From: Leptolyngbya sp. ES-bin-22
GTDB taxonomy: Bacteria > Cyanobacteriota > Cyanobacteriia > Leptolyngbyales > Leptolyngbyaceae
Assembly: GCA_014380065.1 (NCBI GenBank)
Contig: JACMKO010000011.1
Coordinates: forward strand, 1-36,570
Direction: 5' to 3'
Length of the DNA stretch: 36,570 nucleotides
Every line of letters begins with the position of its first letter. The stretch's first letter is position 1. The notes under the pieces are model-generated. The model searched no databases. It saw only the letters and a program-made list of their open reading frames with translations, and was not told where the DNA came from. Both the position numbers and the translations under genes were made by a program. Positions 1,041 through 7,866 of this stretch are shown in pieces.

Positions 1041-1607
1041 ATGACTGCTCAGGTTTTGGTCGAGAAGAAGAAGCTGGCAAAGCCCCCTTTGGATATTTAT
1101 CGGTTGGGCGATCGCGTGTTGCGGCAGCCAGCCAAGCGCATTGCAAAAGTCGATGCGGAAGTAAAGCAGTTGATCCGCGAAATGCTGCAAACGATGTATA
1201 GCGCCGATGGGATCGGGCTGGCAGCACCGCAAGCCGCTGTCAACAAACAGCTCATTGTGATCGACTGTGAGCCGGATGAAGCTGCCACACCGCCTTTGAT
1301 CTTGATCAATCCGGTGATCAAGCAAGCAAGCGCCGATCTGTCCGTGACGCAAGAAGGGTGTCTCAGCATCCCTGGAGTGTATCTAGATGTAAAACGTCCC
1401 ACTGCAATCGAAGTTTCTTACAAAGATGACCAGGGTCGTCCGCAAAAATTGTCAGCTACAGGGCTTCTAGCCTGTTGCATTCAGCACGAAATTGACCACC
1501 TTAATGGGGTTTTGTTCGTCGATCGTGTTGAAAACGCACTCATGCTAAACGAAGAGCTGACTAAGCATGGCTTTTCGGCTCAGGCGGTCAAATCGATCGT
1601 ACACTGA
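1041..1607 (+). CDS. def: Peptide deformylase
   Basis: The enzyme removes the formyl group from the initiator methionine of new proteins. All three catalytic motifs are present: GIGLAAPQ (57-64), EGCLS with the metal ligand Cys107, and HEIDH (149-153), where two histidines bind the metal and Glu150 is the catalytic acid/base. The length of 188 residues is normal for a bacterial deformylase. A Cys-Cys pair precedes QHEIDH where I would expect a residue such as Arg, an odd but probably harmless change. An adenine- and guanine-rich GAGAG lies just before the ATG. A duplicated 11-bp motif lies upstream. Confidence 0.97.
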   Translation: MTAQVLVEKKKLAKPPLDIYRLGDRVLRQPAKRIAKVDAEVKQLIREMLQTMYSADGIGLAAPQAAVNKQLIVIDCEPDEAATPPLILINPVIKQASADLSVTQEGCLSIPGVYLDVKRPTAIEVSYKDDQGRPQKLSATGLLACCIQHEIDHLNGVLFVDRVENALMLNEELTKHGFSAQAVKSIVH

Positions 1608-1969: not shown

Positions 1970-3385
1970 ATGACGGGAACGGATCGCTACACACCATTTC
2001 TGCGGCTGCTGCCTTCTGGTGACGCTGCTGGAAACTACCCCCTGTATCCGCTATCGCTGACGGAGACGGTAACGCTTGGGCGTGATCCACAGTGCCAAAT
2101 CGTCTTAGACCCACTGGTTTATCGGGCTGTGTCACGGCGACATGCCGAAGTAAAGCCCGTCTTGGGGTTTGAGTCACCTGATGGCAACCACTTTTGGCAG
2201 GTTGGCGACCTGGGCAGCGCTAATGGCACGTTTGTCAATGGCGAGCGGCTCAAAGATGTCCAGGTGTTGCATCCAGGCGATCGCATTGCACTGGGGCAGA
2301 ACGGACCTGAATTTCTCTTTGAATGCCAGCCTAGCGTAAGGACTGCTAAACCAGCACCACCAACTCCACCAGCGCGGATCAATCTGCCCGTCGCTACTCG
2401 TCGTAAGCGGACTCCTGCTCCCGATCGACTCTCTGCAACCAGCCCACCGCCACGCCGCCGCGAACCCGATGCGATCAGTCTGACGCAGTTGTTTCCAATC
2501 CTTTCTACAGGACGACAGCTAACGCGCAAAGCCTATTTGCTTCCAGGCGGCATCACGGTCGCGTTTGTGGTGCTCATGTTTGTGGCGGTTGGCAACCCGC
2601 TGGCGTTCAACATGCTGCTGGCAGCCTATCTAGCGGGTGCTGCGTACTATTTTGTCTACGAGCTGTGTGGAAAGCGGAAACCCTGGTGGATTCTGTCGGG
2701 TGCGGCTGTGTTTACGCTGCTGCTGCTTATCAGCCCCGTGCTTAAGCTCTTCGTGTTTGTGTTTCGGCAAGTCTTACCAGGCGAGTTGCCTACAGGGGAT
2801 GTTGCAGTCCCCTTCCCAATCTTGCTGATCAAGATGTTCTTTGGTGCGGGGTTGATGGAGGAGTTGCTGAAAGCAATTCCGGTCTTTGCTGCTTATTTGC
2901 TAGGAACTCAGTTGCGATCGCCCTACCGAGAGCGTCTAGGCGTGTGGGAACCGTTAGACGGGATTCTGCTGGGCAGTGCGTCCGCAGTTGGCTTCACCTT
3001 GCTGGAAACATTGGCACAGTATTTACCCGAAGTGTATAAAGCCACGTTGTCCTCTGGCGAAGGAGCCGCCCAACTCGCCAGCTTGCAACTGTTGATTCCA
3101 CGCGTTTTGGGTTCCGTGGCAGGGCATATGGCGTACAGCGGCTATTTGGGCTACTTTATTGGACTCAGCGTGCTGCGATCGCGACGACGCTGGCTCATTT
3201 TGGGCATCGGCTATCTCACCGCTTCCGGACTCCACGCCCTCTGGAACACCGTTGGCAGCATTAGTCCCGTTTTCCTGGCGCTGGTTGGTCTGCTGTCATA
3301 CGCCTTCCTCGCTGCCGCCATTCTTAAAGCACGTGAATTATCACCGACGCGATCGCAGAACTTCGCCACCCGCTTCTACAAGTAG
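1970..3385 (+). CDS. FHA domain fused to a PrsW-type intramembrane metalloprotease
   Basis: The N-terminus (about 34-118) is an FHA domain with the expected LGRD, SRRHAE and NGTFVNG elements, which reads phosphothreonine on partner proteins. A proline- and arginine-rich linker (120-175) joins it to a multi-spanning membrane domain. That domain has the PrsW/M82 signature residues: MEELLK (Glu297, Glu298, Lys301), FTLLE (Glu346), His386 in GHMAYSG and His422 in LHALWN. PrsW proteins cut membrane-bound substrates, classically the anti-sigma factor RsiW in Bacillus. The FHA part suggests that phosphorylation selects the substrate or switches the protease. This is inferred from architecture only. 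The substrate is unknown and no anti-sigma gene is nearby. Confidence 0.88.
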   Translation: MTGTDRYTPFLRLLPSGDAAGNYPLYPLSLTETVTLGRDPQCQIVLDPLVYRAVSRRHAEVKPVLGFESPDGNHFWQVGDLGSANGTFVNGERLKDVQVLHPGDRIALGQNGPEFLFECQPSVRTAKPAPPTPPARINLPVATRRKRTPAPDRLSATSPPPRRREPDAISLTQLFPILSTGRQLTRKAYLLPGGITVAFVVLMFVAVGNPLAFNMLLAAYLAGAAYYFVYELCGKRKPWWILSGAAVFTLLLLISPVLKLFVFVFRQVLPGELPTGDVAVPFPILLIKMFFGAGLMEELLKAIPVFAAYLLGTQLRSPYRERLGVWEPLDGILLGSASAVGFTLLETLAQYLPEVYKATLSSGEGAAQLASLQLLIPRVLGSVAGHMAYSGYLGYFIGLSVLRSRRRWLILGIGYLTASGLHALWNTVGSISPVFLALVGLLSYAFLAAAILKARELSPTRSQNFATRFYK

Positions 3386-3662: not shown

Positions 3663-4154
3663 CTACTCCTCAAACGACATTAAAAGCTTACGCAGCAATT
3701 GAGCGAGAGCGTCACGTTCCGCCTCTTCTAAAGTGCTCAGGAGCCTATGCTCATTGGCAACATGAACCGCAATCGCTTTTTCAATCACGTCAAACCCCTT
3801 GTGGGTCAACTGAATAAGCGTCACTCGGCGATCGATTGAATCAGGAATACGCTGCACCAGTTCAGCTTGTTCTAAACCATCAAGCCGATGCGTCATCGTA
3901 CCGGATGAAACCATTAAGGTGTTGAATAGCTCCGTCGGTGTCAGTTGGTGCGGCTGACCAGAGCGGCGCAACGTTGCCAACACGTCAAATTCGCCAGCGT
4001 TCAAATCAAACTCTGAAAACGTCTTTTGAATCCCTCGCAGCAGGTGCTGTCTCACGCGTCCTATTCTGCCAATGATGCCCATCGGTGATACATCTAAGTC
4101 AGGGCGCTCTTTCTGCCATTGCGCCAAAATTGCATCGATCTGATCACCACTCAT
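3663..4154 (-). CDS. MarR family transcriptional regulator
   Basis: The protein has the winged-helix arrangement of MarR repressors: a dimerising N-terminal helix, a recognition helix around LTPTELFNTLMVSSGTMTHRL, and the wing with the DRR motif (DSIDRRVTLIQLT). It would bind palindromic DNA and release it on binding a small ligand. It is transcribed divergently from an EamA-type exporter, and strong palindromes fill the gap between them. This fits a repressor of itself and of the exporter. I chose the ATG at 4154. A GTG at 4169 would add five residues but sits only 6 bp from the palindrome. The product is 163 residues, a normal length. Confidence 0.93.
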   Translation of the reverse strand: MSGDQIDAILAQWQKERPDLDVSPMGIIGRIGRVRQHLLRGIQKTFSEFDLNAGEFDVLATLRRSGQPHQLTPTELFNTLMVSSGTMTHRLDGLEQAELVQRIPDSIDRRVTLIQLTHKGFDVIEKAIAVHVANEHRLLSTLEEAERDALAQLLRKLLMSFEE

Positions 4155-4175
4155 TGAAATGCCAGACACCTAAAA

Positions 4176-4206
4176 ATCTTGATGCTAACCATCTTAGCAT
4201 CAAGAT
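4176..4206. promoter_or_regulatory. Perfect 13-bp inverted repeat, probable MarR operator
   Basis: ATCTTGATGCTAA (4176-4188) and its exact reverse complement TTAGCATCAAGAT (4194-4206) are separated by 5 bp. The site lies just upstream of the marR-type gene and 48 bp before the exporter gene. Size, symmetry and place fit a MarR dimer site controlling both genes. The TATCTTGAT core recurs in the second site at 4232. Confidence 0.75.
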
Positions 4207-4210
4207 AAAT

Positions 4211-4253
4211 GCTAGAATTTCGATGTTAAGTATCTTGATATAAAGATTCTAGC
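4211..4253 (+). promoter_or_regulatory. Nested palindromes just before the EamA gene
   Basis: An inner half-site pair ATCTT-GATATA-AAGAT (4232-4247) repeats the ends of the main operator and is a likely second MarR site. An outer pair, GCTAGAAT (4211-4218) and ATTCTAGC (4246-4253), ends one base before the exporter start codon. In mRNA it could also form a hairpin over the ribosome-binding region. The two pairs overlap by two bases. Confidence 0.55.
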
Positions 4254-4254
4254 C

Positions 4255-5172
4255 ATGAAGACACCTACTGTTCGGCTGTCCGACATTCTGCTGACTGCTT
4301 TAGCGCCGATGGCATGGGGAACGACATATGTTGTGGCAACTGAACTCCTGCCGCCTAATCATCCGCTCTTGGTGGCTTCGTTGCGATCGCTGCCCATTGG
4401 TCTTCTGCTAATAGCATGGGTACGACAACTGCCTCAAGGCATTTGGTGGTGGCGTATTTTGCTCTTAGGTAGCCTCAATATCGGCATTTTTCAGGCACTA
4501 TTGTTTGTGGCGGCTTATCGTCTTCCAGGTGGCGTTGCGGCGACAGCAGGTGCAATCCAGCCTTTGTTAGTCGTTTTGTTTTCCTGGATCATCTTGCATG
4601 AAAAACCGTCTAAGCTGTCGATTGTGGCGGCGATCGCTGGCTTTGTAGGTGTCGGCTTGCTGGTGCTCGGTCCGGCAGCGCGACTGGATGGCGTTGGCAT
4701 TGCGGCAGCGATCGCGGGAGCCGTAACGATGGGGTTGGGCACGGTACTCGTCAAACGGTGGAAACGCCCAGTGTCTCTACTGGTTTTTACAGCATGGCAG
4801 TTAGCCGTTGGTGGTTTCGTTCTGCTGCCGATCGCTCTGGTGGTTGAAGGACCGATCACGCATGTCTCAACCACTAATCTATGGGGCTTTGCTTACCTGG
4901 GCTTGATCGGCACTGGGCTTGCTTATGCGCTTTGGTTCCGGGGCATTGATAAACTCAAAACGTCGGCAGTTGCGTCTCTAGGTCTGATGAGTCCTCTAGT
5001 TGCAACGCTTATCGGCTTCGTTTTACTCGGTCAAACCTTTACACCCATTCAACTGATTGGGATTGCGATCGTGTTGGTGAGTGTTTTGATCGGACAACAG
5101 ACGAATCAATCACCTCAACCTCCCTCTCATCCTTCCAAATCACGGCTCAAAAAAGCACGTTCAGGTTTGTGA
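4255..5172 (+). CDS. EamA/DMT family transporter, probable efflux pump
   Basis: The 305-residue protein has about ten hydrophobic helices in two similar halves, as expected for two EamA repeats of the drug/metabolite transporter superfamily. Recognisable family segments are WGTTYVVATELLPPNHPLL near the N-terminus and YALWFRGIDKLKTSAVASLGLMSPLVATLIGFVLLGQ in the second half. Related proteins (YedA/PecM type) export amino acids, pigments or toxic metabolites. The substrate here is unknown. The divergent MarR gene and the shared operators suggest the pump is induced by the compound it exports. The last 20 residues are polar and rich in Pro, Ser and Lys. Confidence 0.9.
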   Translation: MKTPTVRLSDILLTALAPMAWGTTYVVATELLPPNHPLLVASLRSLPIGLLLIAWVRQLPQGIWWWRILLLGSLNIGIFQALLFVAAYRLPGGVAATAGAIQPLLVVLFSWIILHEKPSKLSIVAAIAGFVGVGLLVLGPAARLDGVGIAAAIAGAVTMGLGTVLVKRWKRPVSLLVFTAWQLAVGGFVLLPIALVVEGPITHVSTTNLWGFAYLGLIGTGLAYALWFRGIDKLKTSAVASLGLMSPLVATLIGFVLLGQTFTPIQLIGIAIVLVSVLIGQQTNQSPQPPSHPSKSRLKKARSGL

Positions 5173-5294: not shown

Positions 5295-5963
5295 TCACCC
5301 ATCACTCGTTGCGTCTAGTTCAACCAGCGCGTAGCGGGCGATCTCCAAACTCAAACGGGCTTGTTCAACATCAGAAAGCGCGTCCCATTCAATCGAACGG
5401 ACGCGCTCTAAGGTAGCTTCAATGGGAGCGTCATTGCCTCGCATGGCGTAGGCAAGAGGACGCGCTAAAACGTATAAGTCGTCTTCTGCCAAATTGGGGA
5501 GTGCGTCTTGAACACACTGCACTAACTGCTCGGCAAGGGAAGCGGACGTAGACAAAACTTGTTGGGCGCGAGTGGCGATCGCGGTGAGCAACTGCTGAGG
5601 AACGCGGGTCGCGAAGCGCTGCATCAGGGTTTCTTGAAGGGTTGCGGTTGACCAAAGTTGGTTTACCTGGGCAAAGAAGACACTGGAACGGGACGCAACC
5701 TCGTCCGCATTCCAGCCATCCAGGGAGAACTCTTGCTCTAATTCTGTAAAAAATGCTTCCGATTCAGGCGCAGCAGGATTCCAAATATACGGAGCTTTAG
5801 CGGTTGGGTCTTCGGCAACAGTCAAGGCATCTTCGGTGAGCGGTTCATTGCCTTGCCAGGAGCAGTGTGCGCCGTCAGCATGGAGCAGTGTTGCCCAGAG
5901 CGCTTGCTCAACCTTCGCCTCTAACTCTGTTTGATCGTCGGGACACATTACCTTATTTTCCAT
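5295..5963 (-). CDS. Conserved protein of unknown function beside the CHAT-FHA gene
   Basis: This is an acidic, soluble, mostly helical protein of 222 residues. It has no signal peptide, membrane segment or known catalytic motif. The WNPAAPESEAFFTELEQEF segment (about residues 58-76 of this start) looks like a conserved block, and the C-terminal half is Ala/Leu-rich helix. I chose the ATG at 5963 because AGGAG lies at a proper distance before it. The upstream ATG at 5978 has no ribosome-binding site. It is the next gene downstream of the CHAT-FHA protein on the same strand, 175 bp away, so a functional link is possible but not shown. Confidence 0.75.
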   Translation of the reverse strand: MENKVMCPDDQTELEAKVEQALWATLLHADGAHCSWQGNEPLTEDALTVAEDPTAKAPYIWNPAAPESEAFFTELEQEFSLDGWNADEVASRSSVFFAQVNQLWSTATLQETLMQRFATRVPQQLLTAIATRAQQVLSTSASLAEQLVQCVQDALPNLAEDDLYVLARPLAYAMRGNDAPIEATLERVRSIEWDALSDVEQARLSLEIARYALVELDATSDG

Positions 5964-6138
5964 ATTGGACTCCTGCATGCACTGAAAACAATACCTCGTT
6001 GGTGTTACCTACAGGACGATCGCAATCAGTTCCGCAACTCCATCTAATTTACGTCATTTATCCGCTCAATGAGTTAGCTCAACCAGGTTCGCCGACTGAC
6101 CAAACCAGCAGGGCATGGGTGAGCTTGCTCTGAATCGG

Positions 6139-7866
6139 CTATTCCAGAGCGCGATCGTCGTAGGGAAGCTTTACCGAGGTCGTGAACTCTAGCGCTTCGT
6201 TATGAGCGCTGCCAAACTTCAGATGGCTGCCAGGCTGCAACGGTACCTCCTGACGATGCACTTTGCGCCAACCATTCGCTTCTAAACCAGCATCGAGCAT
6301 CCAGGTGCCAAAGCGGGAAAAGTCTTCGAGAAAGTAAGCCAACTCGGTGCTGCCGTTGCGCTGCGACTGGCGACAAAAAATGACTGCATGTTTGCGAGAC
6401 ACACCGCCCTGATCTTCTTGCAGCACCAAATCGTTTTCAGCACGGTCTCTCCCCACGCGCATGAAGCCGCCCTGAATCTGCCAGACTCTTGCTGTGGTGA
6501 GCGATCGCAGTGCCGCATCTGGCTTTGGTTGCCCCAGGCGAGTAATGGGTCCTGGCATGGCGGTCATGCCCCCTTCGATGGGTTGCAACAGTTCGCCATC
6601 AAATTCGGGATGCATGTAGAGTACAGGCAATGTCCAGGCTTGTTGGTTAAAGCGATACAGCGTCAACAGGTGCTGTCGGGCAACGGCAACCGCCTGATCG
6701 ATCGGCACTCGTCCTGATAGCGCTCGTGCAAAGGCCTGGATAAAACTGAGCGCTTCTTCATCCGTAATCGAATCCCGCATCCCCAAAACAGCAGGAACCC
6801 CGTGATGAATAAGCACCTCGGCTAAACTGCTGCGCGGCATTGCCTGCGATCGCACTGCTTCGGTTGCAACACCGTCAGCAAGCGTTTCATGATCGGGTTG
6901 GGCACCCCAGCAGGCGTTGAAGACAGCTAATTTCACCTGGCAGCGCGTAAGCACCTGTGCTAGTTCCGTCCCATTGAGGGTCATGTCGGGGCGCAAAAAC
7001 AGCAGCCCACCGTCTGGAGCAGGCATACCATGACCAGCGTAAAAAAAGACATTATACCCATGCTGCTCAAGCTGGCTGATTAGGGCTGCTGGCGTTGGTT
7101 GCACCAGCGTATCAACCTGACAAGGCGTAATAGTTCCACCGCCAATGCCACTGCTGCCAGAGGTTGTGAGCAGACGAGCCAGCACATTCGCTTCTTGCTC
7201 AAGCTGTAAGGTTGGCGAGGCTTTGGGATCGATCGTGCTAACAGATCCCTCTAACCTGTCGTTTGACGGTGGTTCAGAATCCTGACCCAGCACGAGCAGG
7301 ATTTTGAGGATGTTGTCCGATCGTAGGGCGGGCAGCGAATGCACATCGCGGGTGGTGCGGCTAAACAATAGTTGCTGCCGAAGCGAAATCGGCTGTTTAC
7401 CCGCTCCATCCTGCATGATTTCCCAGGGCAGCGCGACCAGATTGGGATCACGAATTTCTAAGCGCAGACGCAGCGGTTTTGATTGTCCCATCGCAATGCC
7501 CTGACTATGGTCGAGGCTCCCTTGAATCGGACCATCGAATAACCACTGCCAGAGGCTAATACCCAGATTTTGCATCAATCGACCCGACTGGCTTACAGGC
7601 TGACTGGGCGCAGGTGGCGGCGTTTCCAGCGGCAGCACAAGATCTGGAGGCAGCTCATCAACTTGCGACACCTGGGGTACATTGGGCAAGCTTCTAGCAG
7701 AAAACATTTCCTGCCAACCCAGCCACAGGTGGTTTTGAGCCTCTGCCCAGGCACAGTCATGCAAAACGTAGCCCCCTGGATATGGGGCTTGAGTGACGTA
7801 GATGGCGAAATGATTCACTGTCAGTAAAGGATCGATCGCCAGATTCAAGCAGGGAATTTCAGACAA
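6139..7866 (-). CDS. CHAT caspase-like protease domain with C-terminal FHA domain
   Basis: Residues about 1-160 form an N-terminal region of a type I associate with cyanobacterial CHAT proteins. Residues about 190-400 are a CHAT domain, a clan CD (caspase/separase-like) peptidase fold. The probable catalytic pair is His279 in FFYAGHG and Cys319 in FNACWGA. Supporting motifs are LAEVLIHHGVPAVLGMRDSI and the DQAVAVAR helix. Residues about 455-565 are an FHA domain (VGRD, SRKHAV, SRFGTW). The start is a TTG with no clear ribosome-binding site, but the SEIPCLNLAID N-terminus looks native and the next Met is at residue 54. FHA binding of phosphothreonine could direct the protease to its target. 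No substrate is known. Confidence 0.88.
   Translation of the reverse strand: MSEIPCLNLAIDPLLTVNHFAIYVTQAPYPGGYVLHDCAWAEAQNHLWLGWQEMFSARSLPNVPQVSQVDELPPDLVLPLETPPPAPSQPVSQSGRLMQNLGISLWQWLFDGPIQGSLDHSQGIAMGQSKPLRLRLEIRDPNLVALPWEIMQDGAGKQPISLRQQLLFSRTTRDVHSLPALRSDNILKILLVLGQDSEPPSNDRLEGSVSTIDPKASPTLQLEQEANVLARLLTTSGSSGIGGGTITPCQVDTLVQPTPAALISQLEQHGYNVFFYAGHGMPAPDGGLLFLRPDMTLNGTELAQVLTRCQVKLAVFNACWGAQPDHETLADGVATEAVRSQAMPRSSLAEVLIHHGVPAVLGMRDSITDEEALSFIQAFARALSGRVPIDQAVAVARQHLLTLYRFNQQAWTLPVLYMHPEFDGELLQPIEGGMTAMPGPITRLGQPKPDAALRSLTTARVWQIQGGFMRVGRDRAENDLVLQEDQGGVSRKHAVIFCRQSQRNGSTELAYFLEDFSRFGTWMLDAGLEANGWRKVHRQEVPLQPGSHLKFGSAHNEALEFTTSVKLPYDDRALE

Follow-up and report, generated by a model that had tools for sequence, protein, structure and literature searches.

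Architecture and functional residues of the FHA-PrsW protein

The window, by which we mean the whole stretch of DNA analysed (36,570 nucleotides of Leptolyngbya sp. ES-bin-22), encodes on its forward strand a protein that joins an FHA domain to a PrsW membrane domain, hereafter FHA-PrsW. The features of this gene and of the neighbours considered below are as follows.

1041..1607, + strand: peptide deformylase gene (def), upstream of FHA-PrsW and on the same strand
1970..3385, + strand: FHA-PrsW protein, 471 aa, ATG start (ORF, Pfam, alignment and AlphaFold2)
2069..2296, + strand: FHA domain, residues 34-109 (Pfam PF00498, E=1e-16; Foldseek matches to solved FHA domains)
2333..2473, + strand: variable disordered linker, residues 122-168, 10-66 aa among homologues (alignment and AlphaFold2)
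2474..2539, + strand: conserved juxtamembrane segment, residues 169-190 (alignment)
2678..3319, + strand: PrsW domain, residues 237-450 (Pfam PF13367, E=3.3e-33)
2858..2872, + strand: PrsW motif 1, E297-E298-x-x-K301, invariant
2993..3007, + strand: PrsW motif 2, F342-x-x-x-E346, invariant
3125..3127, + strand: PrsW motif 3, H386, invariant
3233..3247, + strand: PrsW motif 4, H422-x-x-x-N426, invariant in 51 homologues, N426 near-invariant against other PrsWs
5295..5978, - strand: S, an all-helical protein of unknown family, 227 aa, convergent with FHA-PrsW
6139..7866, - strand: CHAT-FHA protein, 575 aa, with CHAT at about 6634-7563 and FHA at about 6211-6459

The initial annotation, made from the letters of the DNA and their translations, had described a complete FHA domain joined to a PrsW domain, and both Pfam matches agree with this, the two domains being separated by a linker that is disordered. 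The PF13367 match scored 115.3 bits against a curated cut-off of 23.5 and spans profile positions 1-195 of 196. The FHA motifs LGRD, SRRHAE and NGTFVNG, which the same annotation had listed, are present at residues 36-39, 55-60 and 85-91 respectively, and the phosphopeptide residues R38, S55 and N85 are invariant in 51/51 cyanobacterial homologues. Two FHA-PrsW sequences have FHA loops that are partly degenerate in the alignment, which we count against the interpretation preferred below.

The PrsW of Bacillus subtilis (YpdC) is defined by the motifs E75E76xxK79, F110xxxE114, H138 and H175xxxD/N179 (PMC12943098), and its function needs E75/E76 and H175 (PMC12943098; PMC4602095). The window protein carries all four motifs; it differs from YpdC by its FHA domain, and for YpdC the substrate is known, the anti-sigma factor RsiW, on which it acts as site-1 protease. 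Residues E297, E298, K301, F342, E346, H386, H422 and N426 are invariant in the 51 cyanobacterial homologues, and the five Glu and His residues among them that had been proposed at the outset (E297, E298, E346, H386 and H422) lie exactly where they were placed. When 16 PrsW proteins were aligned, divergent short cyanobacterial forms (18-26% identity) among them, the first seven of these residues are found in 16/16 proteins and N426 in at least 90%, and a homologue devoid of the Glu or His residues was encountered neither here nor among the 51. That the protein is a protease is a prediction from its sequence, every B. subtilis PrsW motif being present.

The AlphaFold2 model (mean pLDDT 81.5, pTM 0.61, the position of one domain relative to the other being undefined) combines a confident beta-sandwich FHA, a disordered linker at residues 125-181 (pLDDT<50) and a confident long-helix membrane domain, in which helices 282-314, 328-362, 364-402 and 404-431 carry the PrsW motifs; neither this model nor the alignment gave a membrane part unlike PrsW. 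Foldseek supported the FHA fold by solved FHA domains (best E=9.8e-7, probability 1.00). The best 50 PDB fold matches were all FHA or FHA-like, with no solved PrsW relative and no Rce1 among them, and when the PDB was searched with a sequence profile, FHA chains alone and no PrsW structure came up, so that the PrsW assignment rests on sequence. In a published model, the EExxxR and HxxxN motifs of Rce1 superpose on EExxK and HxxxD of PrsW (PMC4602095), although the type II CAAX proteases of the Rce1/CPBP superfamily belong to a family other than PrsW.

Between the two domains, the linker is poorly conserved (24% identity, 10 to 66 residues among homologues), and the juxtamembrane segment 169-190, SLTQLFPILSTGRQLTRKAY, reaches 69% mean identity, equal to the catalytic core. 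Positive residues are found in this segment, in the 234-238 and 315-327 loops and at the C-terminus, and negative residues at 269-281; since this charge distribution fits the positive-inside rule, we infer that the FHA domain lies in the cytosol.

The initial annotation knew of no PrsW system with an FHA input, which is contradicted by Zhang et al. 2012 (PMC3482391), where PrsW is reported to be fused in several bacteria to PilZ, cyclic-nucleotide-binding, FHA or Zn-ribbon domains, such fusions being read as likely "signaling peptidases". That FHA-PrsW has the same two domains and the same proposed signalling-peptidase role as the protein described here, so the fusion and its general interpretation were already known and novelty of the fusion is ruled out. 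Zhang et al. 2012 devote a single sentence and a supplementary list to these fusions, and the sentence gives for FHA-PrsW no organism, no residues and no gene neighbourhood. A further PrsW with a cytosolic signal-binding domain has been described in Leptospira interrogans, the PilZ-PrsW LIC_20173, in which the added domain is C-terminal and of the c-di-GMP type, whereas the window protein has an N-terminal FHA (PMC12943098). What is added here is the cyanobacterial breadth of FHA-PrsW, the invariance of the residues on which its function should depend, and a neighbourhood of PP2C, CHAT-FHA and S that is conserved.

Distribution and gene neighbourhood in the phylum

PrsW was searched for in 292 genomes sampled from the phylum. 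Matches were obtained in 70 of them, and 64 carry the long form close to the window protein, distributed over 18 families and 36 genera. The FHA domain was found by sequence search at every FHA-PrsW locus except two, both of family f17; in one of these (L105), which was scanned, Pfam recognised an FHA (E=1.4e-12), and the alignment of both runs through the FHA region. Many genomes of family f7 have in addition a shorter PrsW that lacks the FHA; the single PrsW of the window's own genome is the FHA form. No plasmid-borne copies were found. Okeania, Planktothrix and Hydrocoleum (L010, L011 and L012) have a PrsW of the same clade, 57-59% identical, from which the FHA is missing, and neither a separate FHA gene nor an FHA-like stretch was found at their loci. 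These three relatives indicate that the FHA is dispensable in some lineages, a point that we also count against the preferred interpretation.

About 16 kb were fetched around each match and all neighbouring genes were clustered. Besides FHA-PrsW itself, four groups recur most widely: S is in 38 loci from 10 families, peptide deformylase in 16 from 10, CHAT-FHA in 35 from 8 and a four-Cys/PP2C protein in 29 from 7. Next come a group of ABC-ATPases with 6 families and ndhM with 5, everything else being present in 4 or fewer. The usual gene order is def, FHA-PrsW and then, in convergent orientation, S, CHAT-FHA, PP2C and ndhM. The gene for S is convergent with FHA-PrsW in 37/37 linked genomes of 9 families, and def adjoins FHA-PrsW in 16/64 loci of 10 families. 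As the housekeeping gene def is retained as widely, linkage alone may be partly an ancestral residue.

In the window, a PBP2 gene occupies the place of PP2C, and MarR and EamA genes separate FHA-PrsW from S. These last two, a regulator and a transporter gene at 3663-5172 that are divergent, were absent by BLAST from the other loci compared.

Ser/Thr kinases and anti-sigma factors had been suggested as neighbours to be looked for. Kinase genes are not conserved neighbours, as Hanks-like motifs were detected near 4/64 loci only (by a motif screen that could miss distant kinases), and the conserved phospho-signalling neighbour is instead the PP2C phosphatase. Likewise, sigma or anti-sigma genes were not found as conserved neighbours of FHA-PrsW. 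Identity with a defence system was also considered and rejected, FHA-PrsW, S, CHAT-FHA and PP2C all being without a PADLOC match at E<=0.001. The conserved PP2C/CHAT-FHA/S neighbourhood of FHA-PrsW appears not to have been described before: full-text literature searches, whose coverage leaves out most subscription papers, gave no paper on this cyanobacterial gene set.

Partner proteins and their co-occurrence

S has no match in Pfam, NCBIfam or PADLOC and no significant fold in the PDB, and its predicted structure is all-helical (pLDDT 75.7). CHAT-FHA combines a caspase-like CHAT domain, whose His279/Cys319 dyad is invariant in 26/26 sequences, with an FHA domain in which the Arg is kept in 25/26 and the Ser in 26/26 sequences and the Asn is not kept. 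It resembles HetF in having a CHAT domain whose His/Cys dyad is conserved and differs from it by carrying an FHA and by having no TM segment of HetF's kind; its score against the HetF model NF045509 (156-158 bits, for an equivalog cut-off of 1200) makes it a relative and not a member. The PP2C protein keeps its catalytic Asp residues and four N-terminal Cys in 20/20 sequences and has, again in 20/20, exactly one TM segment, C-terminal to the phosphatase domain.

In 38 genomes, the PP2C gene, with its four zinc-ribbon-like N-terminal Cys, lies directly upstream of CHAT-FHA and shares its strand (for example L104:1860-4343 and L044:2213-4474). It is found at a hisS-like locus in the window's own genome (L135, C591) and in genomes of the same family (L149, G289). 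In these same-family genomes, CHAT-FHA and S come after PP2C at this locus; in the window's own genome the two lie near FHA-PrsW instead, so this pair has relocated in the course of the family's history.

S and CHAT-FHA occur together in 67 of the 71 genomes that have either of them and apart in 4, and in 17 of the 67 the two are unlinked or on different contigs. This near one-to-one co-occurrence, even when the genes are unlinked, suggests that they are a protease-partner pair; on the YchF tree, about 4/5 supported contrasts between them agree and 0 disagree, which is too few for significance. PP2C, CHAT-FHA and S also move as a unit away from FHA-PrsW. FHA-PrsW and S are both present in 54 genomes, with FHA-PrsW alone in 10 and S alone in 16, and their association within the 87 genomes of the class has p=1.8e-4. 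Fisher tests over the whole phylum overstate co-occurrence, since roughly half of the genomes sampled do not belong to the class and many that do are picocyanobacteria. The YchF tree provides just 2 supported independent contrasts between FHA-PrsW and S, with which co-inheritance cannot be called. FHA-PrsW is thus a frequent but separable neighbour of S and CHAT-FHA, and its co-occurrence with them is inseparable from shared ancestry.

Proposed mechanism and alternative readings

The architecture of FHA-PrsW, the conservation of its functional residues, its distribution and its linkage can be read directly from the genomes; catalytic activity and phospho-docking we infer. With a full FHA and every PrsW motif, an active protease with an input that reads phosphopeptides is the best reading, and we consider it fairly likely that FHA-PrsW is a phosphothreonine-docked signalling intramembrane protease working with Hanks-type kinase and PP2C signalling. 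According to this reading, the N-terminal cytosolic FHA would bind a phosphothreonine peptide, and the flexible linker and conserved juxtamembrane segment would connect it to the membrane-embedded glutamate protease of PrsW type. The mark would be set by a Hanks-type Ser/Thr kinase, either on a membrane protein itself or on an adaptor that binds such a protein; docking of the FHA to the mark might recruit the substrate or switch the enzyme, and PrsW would cut a single-pass membrane substrate in or beside its TM segment, PP2C phosphatases then erasing the phosphothreonine mark. In many cyanobacteria, FHA-PrsW may act in this way alongside the conserved operon of PP2C, CHAT-FHA and S. The observation is real and conserved, and the mechanism is plausible. 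The window's own genome has 28 Pkinase and four PP2C matches.

Two candidate substrates have the one-TM layout of RsiW. One is the PP2C protein, a cytosolic enzyme with a short extracytoplasmic tail, homologues of which are found in all 64 FHA-PrsW genomes and in 34 without it. The other is an anti-sigma-like protein of the window's own genome, 211 aa long, with one TM segment and a partial zf-HC2 match, whose gene follows an ECF sigma gene (L155:2358-3879) and which has homologues in 103/292 genomes, namely the 64 with FHA-PrsW and 39 others. Both candidates are thus also present in genomes without FHA-PrsW, so that presence does not discriminate between them, and gene linkage favours PP2C over the anti-sigma-like protein.

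It is in this light that an RsiW-type system can be weighed, in which FHA-PrsW would carry out the site-1 cleavage of the one-TM anti-sigma-like protein that pairs with an ECF (SigG-like) sigma factor, and the FHA would couple it to kinases. The RsiW topology of the 211-aa protein beside the ECF sigma gene, the presence of a homologue in 64/64 FHA-PrsW genomes and the M50 site-2-protease candidates of the window's own genome all speak for such a system, whereas the anti-sigma-like gene also occurs in the 39 genomes without FHA-PrsW and is a neighbour in 0/64 loci; we regard it as unlikely, and for the same two reasons the anti-sigma link of the initial annotation is not supported. The FHA might also be a mere localisation or assembly module, its partner being constitutively phosphorylated or unphosphorylated, and PrsW a protease of housekeeping membrane-protein turnover. 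The highly variable linker length and the three same-clade relatives without FHA speak for this, but pure scaffolding would not require three phosphopeptide-contact residues to be invariant in 51 proteins, and we give this explanation a low probability. Very improbable, finally, is a membrane domain that has no protease activity and acts as a membrane sensor or as an anchor for the FHA: the literature found shows activity for no cyanobacterial PrsW and the PDB sequence search was without a PrsW structure, but all catalytic-motif residues are invariant.

The phosphothreonine-docked protease could be extended to a joint reading, which we hold to be doubtful, in which FHA-PrsW and CHAT-FHA would be the membrane and cytosolic proteolytic arms of one phosphothreonine-controlled system. 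Kinases would write the mark, both FHA domains read it and the linked PP2C erase it, with S as substrate or inhibitor of CHAT-FHA and the one-TM PP2C as the protein cut by PrsW.

If the phosphothreonine-docked protease is confirmed, phosphothreonine signalling would feed straight into intramembrane proteolysis in a large cyanobacterial group, and two signalling routes that have mostly been studied separately would become joined. The gene set is a short one, and since it is linked to ndhM in many genomes from one large family, it can readily be located in genetically tractable filamentous strains. S gains in CHAT-FHA a near-constant partner, which offers an entry point for experiments, and the FHA-less PrsW of Okeania, Planktothrix and Hydrocoleum is a natural control form.
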